Assembly: GCF_000526715.1 (NCBI RefSeq)
Contig: NZ_JAGP01000001.1
Coordinates: forward strand, 682,001 to 746,000
Origin: Hydrogenovibrio kuenenii DSM 12350
GTDB lineage: Bacteria > Pseudomonadota > Gammaproteobacteria > Thiomicrospirales > Thiomicrospiraceae
Direction: 5' to 3'
DNA length: 64,000 nt
Below, in pieces: positions 8,769-55,229 of the stretch. Every line of letters begins with the position of its first letter. The stretch's first letter is position 1. The position numbers were made by a program, and so were the translations under genes. The notes under the pieces are model-generated. The model was not told the DNA's origin, searched no databases, and was given only the letters and a program-made list of their open reading frames with translations.

Positions 8769-11234
8769 ATGAGTATAAAAACAAGAATGTTTATTGGTAT
8801 TTTGGGAGCCGTTTTTTTCCTATTTATTTCGAATGTAATTGCTCAGTATGTATTTAACTCAACCACGGCCACATCAAGAGAGATTACCGATGTTAACTAC
8901 CATAAAGTTGATTTACTCAATCGACTAAAAAACCTTTCTGATAAGCGAGCAATTTTTTTTCGCGACCTAGTTATTTATCAAAAACCTGAACTATTGAAAA
9001 AAACTCGCGAAGCGCTGAAACAAACAGCAAATGACATAGGTGAGATTTTTAAAGAGCTAGAAAAATCGAACTTAAATGCAAAAGAGAAAGATTACTTTCA
9101 GAAGATTAAAGATAATGTGGTCAGTGCTAACCAGTCTTTCGGTAGCTTTATTACCGCATTGGATGAAGGGTTTCCTGAAGATGCACATGATATTCTCATT
9201 AATGAATTTAACCCAAAGTTTCTTGCGTTTTCGAAAATTGTTTCAGATTTCAAAAAGTATGAAGAAGTGCAAAATGTGCATTTAGTTCAAACTCTTGATG
9301 AACAGCAGTCTTGGGGTAAAAACGCTTTATGGGCGGTGTTGGTTTTAAGTGTTTTGATTTTCTCAATTGTGGGTGTGATTGTTGCACGTAGCTTCTTAAA
9401 GCCTATTAATGCGATGCGTGACACCATGACAAAAATTATCGAAACGGGCGATTTAAGTCATAGAACGCCTGTTTATTCCAACGACGAAATAGGACAAAGC
9501 GCTAAAGCCATTAATGAGCTTCTGACAACCATTCATGCAGCTATTGATGATGTTAACTCTGTGATGAATGAGATTTCTAACGGTAGCTTCAAGCAGAAAA
9601 TTGAAAGTGATTACTTAGGTGATTTTGATGTCCTCAAGTCGGGGGTTAATAACTCTTACAATCAAATTTACAACATGGTTGTTATGTTGCGAGGTACAGC
9701 ATCCAATTTAAGAAATGGTTCTTTGGAAGCTATTCATAATGAGCACGCAGAAATGAAAGGTGACTATGCGGCGGTTATTGATGATATGAAAACGGCCATG
9801 GACACCATTCAACACACCGTAGAAGATATTGCCGTTACACTAAATAGTCTTGCTTATGGTGACTTCAGCAAACGTGTTGAAGTGGAAGCACTGGGTGAGT
9901 TTGCAAAACTAAAAAATGCAATCAACCAAACGATTGATAGCTTAGATCAATTTGTTGGTGAGGTGGTGAGCGTTCAGACAAAAATTAGTGATGGCGATTT
10001 GACAGATTTCGTTAAGAAAAATTACCACGGAAAAATGGCTGCGTTAAAAGACAGTTTGAACTTCTCTACACAAAACATTGCTTCTATGATTGCCAAGGTT
10101 GGTGCGGTTTCTAAACTGGTGGCAGATGAAGCCAACAGCATTGCTGATAGTAGTGAGACTGTTTCTGAGCGTATTCAGGAGCAAACTTTGTCATTAGAAA
10201 GTACCTCAACACAAATGGAGCAAATGACCATTACGGTACAACAAAATGCAGATGCAGCTACTAATGCAAATGCTATGACGCAGCAGGCTCAAGAAAAATT
10301 GACTGCTGGCGTTGAAATCATGCGTAGAGCATTAAGCTCGATGGATGAAATGAATGAAGCCAGTCAGAAAATAAATGACATTATTTCTATTATCGATAGT
10401 ATTGCTTTTCAAACCAATTTGTTAGCCTTGAATGCGGCGGTTGAGGCCGCTAGAGCTGGAGAGCATGGGCGAGGATTTGCTGTAGTAGCCGGGGAAGTTC
10501 GTAGTTTGGCTGGAAAGTCTTCTGATGCTGCAGCACAAATCAAAAAACTCATTGATAACTCGGTAAGCATCAGTGATGAAAGTGGTCGCTATGTGAGACA
10601 AACTAGTGATGCTTTAGTTGAAGTGAACGACTCTATGCAAAAGATGTCGGCCATGATTTCAGAAATTGCATCTGCCAGCCATGAACAGGCGACTGGTATT
10701 TCTAGAGTTAACGAAGCCATTGTTGAGATGGAATCCGGCACACAGAAAAATTCCAGTTTGGTTGAAGAGTCTGCTTCCGGTAGTAAAGACCTATTCAGTC
10801 AATCTGAGCAATTGTTGCAATTGGTGCAAGGCTTTAAACTTGACCAGGCTATTGTGCAAAGAATTGCAAAACATCAGCATTCCGAGCTTGCACAGCAGTT
10901 CGAAAAAATGGTTGAAGCGCACCGAGCTTGGAAAGGTAAGATTCGTGGCTTCGTTGATGGTATGGATATTGGTGTTACCTATGATGTGGCGACTGACCAT
11001 ACCGCTTGTATTTTAGGTAAATGGTACTACGGCGAAGGCCAAAACTTGATGCATTTGCCGCTTATGAAAGAGCTTGGACAGGAGCATATGGAAATGCACC
11101 AGGCGATTAAAAAAGTAATGGATGCTAAAGAGATTGGGGATGCCGAATTGGTAGCGGAAGGTTTAAGCCAAGTCGATCAACAGTCCGAAAAAGTGGTGTC
11201 CATCCTGCAGCAACTAGAAGATCAAGTTTCTTAA
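8769..11234 (+). CDS. Methyl-accepting chemotaxis protein with C-terminal CZB zinc-binding domain
   Basis: This is an 821-residue chemoreceptor. It has a membrane helix at about residues 8-28, a four-helix-bundle type periplasmic region to about 185, and a second membrane helix at about 188-208. HAMP units follow, apparently more than one in tandem ([26 protein letters not shown] looks like a repeat unit), then the signalling hairpin with [20 protein letters not shown]. The last 110 residues look like a chemoreceptor zinc-binding (CZB) domain, with [14 protein letters not shown] and [11 protein letters not shown] giving the His/Cys pattern. In E. coli DgcZ and Helicobacter TlpD such domains bind zinc and sense zinc or hypochlorous acid. 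The neighbouring znu genes make zinc an attractive but unproven link. Confidence 0.93.
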
Positions 11235-11243
11235 ACTTGTCTG

Positions 11244-11270
11244 TGCCCTTTTATAAGGATTAAAAGGGCA
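11244..11270 (+). terminator. Hairpin terminator after the CZB chemoreceptor gene
   Basis: Perfect nine-base arms, TGCCCTTTT and AAAAGGGCA, surround a nine-base loop. The 3' side continues into a T-rich tract. It begins ten bases after the stop codon. Confidence 0.75.
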
Positions 11271-11287
11271 TTTCAGTTTCTTTTCGT

Positions 11288-11310
11288 CTTACCCCAGCCT
11301 GGCAGATTTT
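11288..11310 (-). repeat. Dispersed repeat copy 1 (reverse orientation)
   Basis: On the minus strand this reads AAAATCTGCCAGGCTGGGGT followed by AAG, identical over 23 bases to the copy inside sufD. It lies in the gap between two convergent genes, the chemoreceptor gene and znuB. Confidence 0.9.
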
Positions 11311-11355: not shown

Positions 11356-12159
11356 TTAATGTGCTTTTCGAATAAAGCTAAGTAAAAACAGTAAGCTGGC
11401 AACTACAACAATAGACGGTCCCGCTGGCGTATCCCATTGCATCGAAAACAACAACCCGAGAATAACCGATAGTAGAGCAAATATGTAGCTGATAACCACC
11501 ATCTGCTCAGGTGATTTGGCGTGTCTATGAGCAGCGGCAGAAGGGATGATTAATAAAGACGTAATCAATAAAATGCCGACGACTTTAATGGCTAGAGCGA
11601 TTAAAAGTGCTAGCAACAGTGTATAGAGTAGTTGTACTTTTTGCGTTTGAACGCCTTCAACCTGTGCGAGCTCGACGTTTAATGTGATGTTTAGCATGTC
11701 CTGCCAATAGCGATAGAAATATGCTGCTACAGCAACCAATAACCCTGTCATAAACATAATGTCTGTATTGTTGATGCTGAGAATATCGCCAAACAGATAG
11801 CTCATAATATCGATTTGGATGTGGTCTTGAAAACTCAATATAACTAAACCAACGGCAAGAGTGCTGTGAGCAAGTAATCCAAGTAAAGTATCGGAAGAAA
11901 GTACGGTTCTCTTCGATAGAAAGAAGATGGCAATGGCAATGACAACAGACGTAAGCATAACCGCTAAGGTTAAGTTGATTTGCAGTAATAACCCCAGGCT
12001 GACACCAAGCAAGGCTGAGTGGGCTAAGGTCGCGCTAAAGTAGGATTGGCGCTGCCAAACCATAAATACGCCTAGTGGCGTGGCGATAGAAGCAATCAAT
12101 AAACCGCCGATAAGCGCGAGAATCAGAAAGCCTGGTGGGTGTAGCAAAATATCTATCAT
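11356..12159 (-). CDS. znuB: ZnuB, zinc ABC transporter permease
   Basis: ZnuB is the inner-membrane permease of a high-affinity zinc importer. The 267-residue protein is an ABC-3 family permease with about eight or nine hydrophobic helices, including GVFMVWQRQSYFSATLAHSALLGVSLG near the N-terminus and LLALLIALAIKVVGILLITSLLIIPSAAA with the family's conserved coupling-loop region. It overlaps znuC by four bases (ATGA on the minus strand). Zinc rather than manganese is inferred from the adjacent znuA, which has a histidine-rich loop. Confidence 0.94.
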   Translation of the reverse strand: MIDILLHPPGFLILALIGGLLIASIATPLGVFMVWQRQSYFSATLAHSALLGVSLGLLLQINLTLAVMLTSVVIAIAIFFLSKRTVLSSDTLLGLLAHSTLAVGLVILSFQDHIQIDIMSYLFGDILSINNTDIMFMTGLLVAVAAYFYRYWQDMLNITLNVELAQVEGVQTQKVQLLYTLLLALLIALAIKVVGILLITSLLIIPSAAAHRHAKSPEQMVVISYIFALLSVILGLLFSMQWDTPAGPSIVVVASLLFLLSFIRKAH

Positions 12160-17172: not shown

Positions 17173-18480
17173 ATGGCAGCCGTAACTGAAAACCAAATTA
17201 AACCAAGAAAGCAGAGCCCTGTCGCGCAAAAGGCGATTGAGCACTATGTTGGCTTGTCTCAAACGTTGAATGCCAAGACGCAGAATCAAATGCTGTCTGC
17301 AAAACGTTTGGAAGCGCAGAAAAAATTTCAAACGCTTGGCTTGCCTGTGCGTCGTGATGAGGATTGGCAGTACACTTCATTAAACGCCTGGATGCAGATT
17401 GCATTTGAACAAAATCTGCCAGGCTGGGGTAAGCTTGAAGCGAGCCAGCTTGAAGGGTTGTTGCCGGAGTTTGAAACCTATCGTTTTGTTTGGGTAGATG
17501 GTGTTTTTTCATCAGATTTATCTTGTGATGTTGAAAGCCTTCCAGCCGGCTTAACACTCGAAAATAATGAAATTACCAATGCGGATTTGGCAAACTCGGA
17601 TCGTGCATTTGAATTGCTACATGATTTATTGGCGGAAACGCGAACCAAAATCCGTGTAAAGAAAGGTGCAGCGATAGAAACACCAATCGAATTGGTTTAT
17701 GTGCAAACTCAGCCAAAGCACTTGGCAACCTTGAGCTTGGCTGTTGAGGTTGAAGAGAACGCACAAGTGACGTTGATTCAACAAGTGATTGCATTAACTG
17801 GTGGACCTGTTTGTATAAACGGTGTGATGCAGATGGATTTAGCCGCAAACGCGATTTGCAAACAATATGTTGTTCAGGATTTGAATGACAATGATTTTTA
17901 CTTCAATGCACAACATATTCGCCAGCAAGCATCTTCTGTATTCAATTCACTTTATGTCGGTTTGGGTGCCGAAGTGTCTCGTCATCAAAATTACGTTAGT
18001 CTGTGCGGAGAGCATGCTGACTCGTCACAAAGTAGCATTGCTTTTGCTAAAGGTAATCAGATTATTGATTCGCGTACTGATACCCAACACTTGGTTTCAC
18101 ATTGCACCAGCCAACAATTGCATAAGTTTGTGTTGGATGAACAAGCCAGAGGCGTGTTCAACGGTATGATTTATGTTGCAAAAGATGCTCAAAAAACTGA
18201 TGGTCAGATGGATAACAAAAATCTACTGCTGTCCAATAAGGCTAAGATGGATACCAAGCCTCAGTTGGAAATCTATGCTGATGATGTGAAGTGTTCGCAC
18301 GGTTGTGCATCTGGTCAGATTGATGAAAACCAAGTGTTCTATTGTCAGGCACGTGGTATTCGTAAGCAAGATGCAATGCAACTGATTACCAAGGCTTTCT
18401 TACTAGAACCTTTGGATGCTGTTTCGAATGATGCCATTCGAAACTGGTTGTCGCAGCGCATCAGCAAGCTTTTGGCCTGA
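17173..18480 (+). CDS. sufD: SufD, Fe-S cluster assembly subunit
   Basis: SufD pairs with SufB in the SufBC2D complex and is needed for iron entry. The 435-residue protein has the SufBD beta-helix core with SRHQNYVSLCGEHADSS, RGVFNGMIYVAKDAQKTDGQM, LLLSNKAKMDTKPQLEIYADDVKCSHGCASG and FYCQARGIRKQDA. The histidine of CSHGCASG, conserved in SufD, is present. Bases 17411-17433 inside the N-terminal part carry an exact copy of the dispersed repeat, read in frame as roughly QNLPGWGK. That segment lies outside the beta-helix core, so the insertion is apparently tolerated. Confidence 0.97.
   Translation: MAAVTENQIKPRKQSPVAQKAIEHYVGLSQTLNAKTQNQMLSAKRLEAQKKFQTLGLPVRRDEDWQYTSLNAWMQIAFEQNLPGWGKLEASQLEGLLPEFETYRFVWVDGVFSSDLSCDVESLPAGLTLENNEITNADLANSDRAFELLHDLLAETRTKIRVKKGAAIETPIELVYVQTQPKHLATLSLAVEVEENAQVTLIQQVIALTGGPVCINGVMQMDLAANAICKQYVVQDLNDNDFYFNAQHIRQQASSVFNSLYVGLGAEVSRHQNYVSLCGEHADSSQSSIAFAKGNQIIDSRTDTQHLVSHCTSQQLHKFVLDEQARGVFNGMIYVAKDAQKTDGQMDNKNLLLSNKAKMDTKPQLEIYADDVKCSHGCASGQIDENQVFYCQARGIRKQDAMQLITKAFLLEPLDAVSNDAIRNWLSQRISKLLA
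17411..17433 (+). repeat. Dispersed repeat copy 2, inside the sufD reading frame
   Basis: AAAATCTGCCAGGCTGGGGT followed by AAG, identical over 23 bases to the copy at 11288-11310. It lies within the coding sequence of sufD and keeps the frame open. Confidence 0.9.
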
Positions 18481-30198: not shown

Positions 30199-30249
30199 AA
30201 AATCTGCCAGGCTGGGTCTTTTGGTAACGACTCAAGCCTGGTAGATTTT
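30199..30249. repeat. Dispersed repeat, inverted pair between argJ and hisC
   Basis: Arm one starts AAAATCTGCCAGGCTGGGT and arm two is AGCCTGGTAGATTTT. They can pair over 15 bases with one G-T and about 17 bases between. It fills the gap between two convergent genes and ends in T residues, so it likely acts as a two-way terminator. Confidence 0.85.
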
Positions 30250-31440: not shown

Positions 31441-31461
31441 ACCCCTGCTTGGCAGATTTTT
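31441..31461 (-). repeat. Diverged dispersed repeat copy between hisC and the Nudix-ThiE gene
   Basis: The plus strand reads ACCCCTGCTTGGCAGATTTT, which differs from the reverse complement of the consensus at two positions. It is a single arm located in a divergent intergenic region. Confidence 0.7.
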
Positions 31462-38328: not shown

Positions 38329-38355
38329 AAAATCTGCCAGGCCGAGGTACCCCAG
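38329..38355 (+). repeat. Dispersed repeat copy between grxD and rnt
   Basis: AAAATCTGCCAGGC matches the consensus for 14 bases. It is followed by GAGGTACCCCAG, which resembles the opposite arm of the element. It sits just after the terminator and ends beside the rnt stop codon. Confidence 0.75.
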
Positions 38356-55178: not shown

Positions 55179-55229
55179 CAAAATCTGCCAGGCTGGGTCT
55201 AAGTAGATAACCCAGCCTGGTAGATTTTG
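55179..55229. repeat. Dispersed repeat, inverted pair between rimI and suhB
   Basis: Arms starting CAAAATCTGCCAGGCTGGGT and ending CAGCCTGGTAGATTTTG pair over about 20 bases with a single G-T, around a loop of about ten bases. It lies between convergent genes and should form a strong two-way terminator hairpin. Confidence 0.9.

Follow-up and report, generated by a model that had tools for sequence, protein, structure and literature searches.

Introduction

Uptake sequences are stated to occur in two bacterial families, the Neisseriaceae (DUS) and the Pasteurellaceae (USS), and inverted pairs at terminators, dialects and intragenic sites have been described for both (PMC12616744, PMC3630211; see also PMC1939737). 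Neisseriaceae DUS are present in at least hundreds of copies on both strands, in genes and between them, with sites in permissive regions, inverted pairs that serve as terminators, and species dialects that keep a common core; dyad-symmetric forms are reported in Simonsiella and Kingella (PMC3630211). The Pasteurellaceae USS is a short genome-enriched motif with intragenic and terminator copies, and distinct types, with cores AAGTGCGGT or ACAAGCGGT, are found within the one family (PMC12616744). A third comparison is HIP1 of the cyanobacteria, a genome-wide over-represented palindrome linked to methylases, for which the same GCGATCGC is reported in all instances (PMC4390886).

Here we describe a dispersed motif in Hydrogenovibrio kuenenii DSM 12350, which we came upon in a 64,000-nucleotide stretch of its genome (G000:C1:682001–746000, the window). 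It shares the features of the uptake class: abundance on both strands, genic and intergenic copies, inverted pairs, core-keeping dialects, and scarcity in two genomic islands. Unlike the Neisseriaceae DUS, it is unrelated in sequence, longer (18–19 bp) and less numerous (about 400 copies), and is a candidate system known from sequence alone. The palindromic core CCAGGCCTGG of most of its relatives is unlike USS or most DUS, and the top word found de novo in this genome, CCAGGCTGGG, differs from the published DUS and USS family cores (PMC12616744); a switch of one base at all shared sites, set against the USS types, is documented here. With HIP1 it shares a genome-wide over-represented palindrome (cf. 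CCAGGCCTGG in sister species), and it differs in its A-tracts, dialects and terminator pairs and in the non-palindromic form in this genome.

Results

An 18–19 bp motif is present in about 405 copies

The sequence-only reading of the window had drawn attention to a 23-base repeat shared by sufD and an intergenic region some 6 kb away. The sequence AAAATCTGCCAGGCTGGGGTAAG is indeed exact at 17411–17433 (+) and 11288–11310 (−), identical over all 23 bases, and has no match at three or fewer mismatches in 100 shuffled windows. The identity therefore stands, but the unit and the pairing do not: the repeating unit is 18–19 bp, which rules out 23 bp, and the genome holds about 405 copies. The last four bases of the 23-mer (TAAG) carry almost no information genome-wide, and the full 23-mer is seen at only four places on the + strand plus the copy at 11288, so the 23-base identity is no sign of recent copying between the two sites.

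The statistics come from 400-kb blocks and from whole-genome pattern counts. The consensus AAAATCTRCCAGGCTGGGK was derived from 59 copies with three or fewer mismatches in a 400-kb block of this genome (block A, G000:C1:500001–900000). Its edges are sharp, with information at background just before the first A and about 2 bases past the last G, and the columns sum to about 34 bits, against the roughly 13.6 bits that suffice to locate 400 sites. Within the block, 28, 22, 5, 4 and 4 copies have 0, 1, 2, 3 and 4 mismatches respectively, whereas permuted motifs give means of 0, 0, 0.05, 0.15 and 1.9. Counting at three or fewer mismatches with base 14 free, we found 183 forward and 222 reverse copies in the 2.45-Mb genome, and three (1 forward, 2 reverse) with a reversed-motif control. 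Forward copies are distributed uniformly around the chromosome (KS P 0.49), and no larger element was seen around the copies.

Eight copies lie in the window (Table 1). The site in the sister genome that matches the copy at 31443–31460 is a perfect copy of the sister dialect, which has T at position 14. Directly 3' of the chemoreceptor gene there is also an inverted repeat, GCCCTTTTA...TAAAAGGGC (11245–11272), which looks like the terminator of that gene and is separate from the motif copy downstream.

Table 1. Motif copies in the 64-kb window and the gene that hosts the sufD copy.
Feature	Positions	Strand	Context
sufD gene	17173–18480	+	Host of a motif copy
Motif copy in sufD (AAAATCTGCCAGGCTGGGG)	17411–17429	+	Frame N-L-P-G-W-G
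Lone intergenic copy	11292–11310	−	Between convergent chemoreceptor (8769–11234) and ABC-3 permease (11356–12159) genes
Inverted pair, left arm	30199–30216	+	Convergent intergenic region
Inverted pair, right arm	30232–30249	−	RNA hairpin −31.2 kcal/mol, UUUU end
Intergenic copy, 2 mismatches	31443–31460	−	Divergent genes
Intergenic copy, 2 mismatches	38329–38346	+	Convergent genes
Inverted pair, left arm	55180–55197	+	Between convergent genes
Inverted pair, right arm	55211–55228	−	RNA hairpin −35.4 kcal/mol, UUUU end

The sufD copy occupies a linker of ordinary length

As first read, the sufD copy keeps the frame open and encodes Leu-Pro-Gly-Trp-Gly-Lys, here as part of N-L-P-G-W-G-K. The product has the Pfam domains SUFBD_core and SufBD_N, and its closest named relative is from Hydrogenovibrio sp. 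JE_KL2 (81% identity). Measured from one fixed anchor to the other, the motif-bearing linker spans 42 residues here and in two sisters. Most Thiomicrorhabdus and Thiomicrospira relatives have 40 residues there, other Hydrogenovibrio 41 or 43, and the H. halophilus pair 50; in relative G007 the linker is 40 residues although that protein has a motif of its own. Because a length of 40–43 residues is found in nearly every relative, whether a motif is present or not, there is no insert of 6–8 residues.

At the same sufD site the sisters G001 and G011 have AAAATCTRCCAGGTTGGGG, and at the same codons AAAATCTACCAGGTTGGGGT. The G007 linker carries a third dialect, AAAATCGCCAGGGGTGG, which reads QKSPGVV as against QNLPGWG here and is also the dialect of the G007 genome. 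The other SufD proteins compared have neither the residues nor the motif in the linker. Identical residues specified by unrelated codons in distant SufD proteins, the outcome named as contrary to the repeat being an element in its own right, were not encountered, the distant proteins having no such residues.

One base differs at every shared site between sister species

We compared block A with the syntenic 400-kb block of G011, which was searched at four mismatches so that C14 was acceptable there too. Of 44 copies with aligned flanks, 40 have a counterpart in G011. Position 14 is C in 40/40 here and T in 40/40 in G011, while positions 1–7, 9–13 and 16–18 agree in 37–40 of the 40 copies, position 15 in 33 and the degenerate position 8 in 21; the DNA flanking the shared copies is about 66–83% identical. 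These 40 copies are ancestral, being common to the two sister species. Together with the ordinary linker, this rules out a 23-base insertion into sufD, and the alternative proposal that the coding copy was the source likewise fails, there being no need for the sufD or the intergenic copy to have given rise to the other.

The C14/T14 change is silent in the favoured coding frame (NLPGW) and alters the protein in others (KIYQAG/KIYQVG, PSLADF/PNLADF, PAWQ/PTWQ). Since the switch changes amino acids in several genes, the sequence comparison indicates that the pressure is on the DNA word.

Copies lie within genes, at convergent gene ends and outside two islands

With ORFs defined mechanically (longest non-overlapping), so that coding fractions are approximate, 23 of the 59 copies in block A are in ORFs (39%), 35 are intergenic and 1 is at an ORF edge; in the sister block 20 of 44 are in ORFs. 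The intergenic copies favour convergent regions (23/35, with 11 tandem and 1 divergent) relative to a background intergenic composition of 13% convergent, 65% tandem and 22% divergent, an excess with P about 1e-12. There are eight inverted pairs in 400 kb, and the two in the window form terminator-like hairpins with U runs.

Two regions, the only ones examined and both chosen for being long gaps, contain no copies where about 5 would be expected in each: a 34-kb low-G+C locus of sugar-biosynthesis and glycosyltransferase-like genes (O-antigen-type; P about 0.006) and a hydrogenase island of about 45 kb in G011 (P about 0.007), with gene content judged from translated starts only. The former (L083:17391 to L085:12625; G000:C1, about 537–573 kb) is directly upstream of comEA. 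In the latter (L115:11387 to L117:17195; G011:C1, about 861–907 kb), a block of the same hydrogenase genes is repeated around a transposase-like gene pair.

Related dialects are found across the family

In the gene at 179335–180751 of block A, a site is present at the same codons here and in four other Hydrogenovibrio (G011, G009, G002 and G006), each time in the dialect of the species. An unbiased search for over-represented words placed CCAGGCCTGG words at the top in G009, G002, G006 and G004. In these genomes the 10-base core has 28–48 copies per 200 kb, and many of them are flanked by an A-tract on one side or on both. Most relatives have the palindromic core CCAGGCCTGG or ACCGGCCGGT, whereas this genome, G001, G011 and G007 have non-palindromic 17–19 bp forms with a one-sided A-tract. 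Across Hydrogenovibrio and its relatives the forms are CCAGG-CTGGG/TTGGG/GGTGG/CCTGG; T. chilensis has the CAGGCCTG form, and the G032 dialect ACCGGCCGGTA is found at 627 forward and 599 reverse places genome-wide. The densest form that we met is palindromic ACCGGCCGGT, with 39 copies per 100 kb in G032 (Thiomicrorhabdus-like genus g3, L192–L196).

Most relatives sampled carry a related dialect in hundreds of copies. In many genomes of the family the copies of the pattern ACCAGGCCTGGNNNNNT number in the tens to hundreds, with none in reversed controls, and 183 gammaproteobacterial genomes outside the family are at background, with at most five ACCAGGCCTGGT.

Discussion

Abundance on both strands, sharp edges, excess information, tolerance within genes, terminator pairs, replacement of dialects and absence from islands together lead us to read the motif as an uptake sequence, an idea that the sequence-only reading had hinted at and that the genome-wide pattern supports well. 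We consider it probable that the motif marks an uptake-sequence system that has dialects and lies beyond the two families in which such systems are stated to occur. It also seems fairly likely that the Hydrogenovibrio–Thiomicrorhabdus–Thiomicrospira family has an independent third uptake system, with whole-genome dialect replacements that change proteins and with a CCAGG core, palindromic in the majority of species and asymmetric in a few.

The receptor of such a system would sit on the cell surface, would probably be one of the type IV minor pilins, and would bind AAAATCTRCCAGGCTGGGK on DNA released by relatives; the bound DNA would be pulled into the cell and then recombined, competence presumably being active. 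If well-matching fragments are preferred in uptake, the motif would be created and kept where the sequence allows, in tolerated places such as intergenic 3' ends and protein stretches like the SufD linker, and inverted pairs at the 3' ends of genes may double as terminators. A shift in receptor specificity would be followed by all copies, giving rise to the species dialects. No receptor was found in the one pseudopilin-like cluster inspected (L188). We found no report of transformation of Hydrogenovibrio, Thiomicrorhabdus or Thiomicrospira in the literature searched, and none linking uptake sequences to these genera among open-licence papers, although unpublished or subscription work may exist; the motif strings matched unrelated papers only, none of the matches being in a bacterial context.

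The main rival is that a protein inside the cell binds or methylates the motif, as a HIP1-like palindrome or global nucleoid-organising site whose binder or methylase drifts while the sites follow by selection, and we regard it as unlikely. It gains from the palindromic cores of most relatives, from the CCWGG sites that lie within CCAGGCCTGG, from the even, unpolarised distribution, and from HIP1 itself being a genome-wide palindrome tied to methylases (PMC4390886). Against it, a symmetric dimer would hardly tolerate asymmetry at hundreds of sites, as found in this genome, G001, G011 and G007, and replacement at all sites, including those where the protein changes, needs a drive beyond weak selection at each site. 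The sequence of HIP1 is moreover invariant wherever described (PMC4390886), and the octamer GCGATCGC is absent from the over-represented word lists of the genomes searched.

We think it very improbable that the motif is simply a standard arm of transcription terminators, spread by selection at gene ends. The strong bias to convergent gene ends and the folding of inverted pairs into hairpins of −31 to −35 kcal/mol that end in a U run are as this would predict, but intergenic copies mostly stand alone, and the unpaired one at 11292–11310 showed no terminator-like fold on RNA folding; nor does a terminator role need a uniform one-base dialect. The 39% of copies that are intragenic, and conserved within genes, speak against termination as the sole function.

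A mobile repeat (MITE or REP-like) with many insertions, that in sufD included, would give near-identical copies with sharp edges, but is largely refuted by the shared ancestral positions and has scarcely any likelihood left: SufD length shows no insert, the flanks of the ancestral copies have diverged while the base change is concerted, many copies are intragenic, and no larger element surrounds them. Equally implausible is a polar recombination or segregation signal of the Chi or KOPS kind, for although the motif is dispersed, genome-wide and asymmetric in this genome, its strand counts and uniform forward sites reveal no replichore strand polarity, it is far longer than such signals, and it is palindromic in relatives.

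If the uptake-sequence reading is correct, a family of free-living sulfur oxidisers has at least six dialects, two of which are set apart by a single base at each site that they share, and would provide a test case for dialect switching and for an uptake drive that overrides selection on proteins. Adding the motif to transforming DNA may then make genetic work on these bacteria practicable.

Competence genes and other repeats

Every Hydrogenovibrio searched has comEC, comEA and dprA, but these genes lack specificity; comEC and dprA are also found in many bacteria without known transformability. Genomes with comEA tend to be those with the motif (Fisher P 0.01), a correlation confounded by descent. 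Some comEA-positive relatives (G071 and G025) have no motif in the 93–100 kb sampled, and G017, a member of another genus in the family, has no comEA match yet carries a dispersed motif of its own. With descent as a confounder and a comEA-negative genome with a motif, we have set comEA aside as support.

The G017 motif, AAAAAGTCGGGGACCCCCC, is different, with 16 copies in 203 kb (L208–L217), and often has a second A/T tract about 15–20 bases upstream; it may represent a further uptake-like word or an element of the REP type. Tandem arrays are also present, at L199:18128–19280 in G071 and at L208:1–1250 and L210:21–1100 in G017, and have periods of about 285 and 177 bases.
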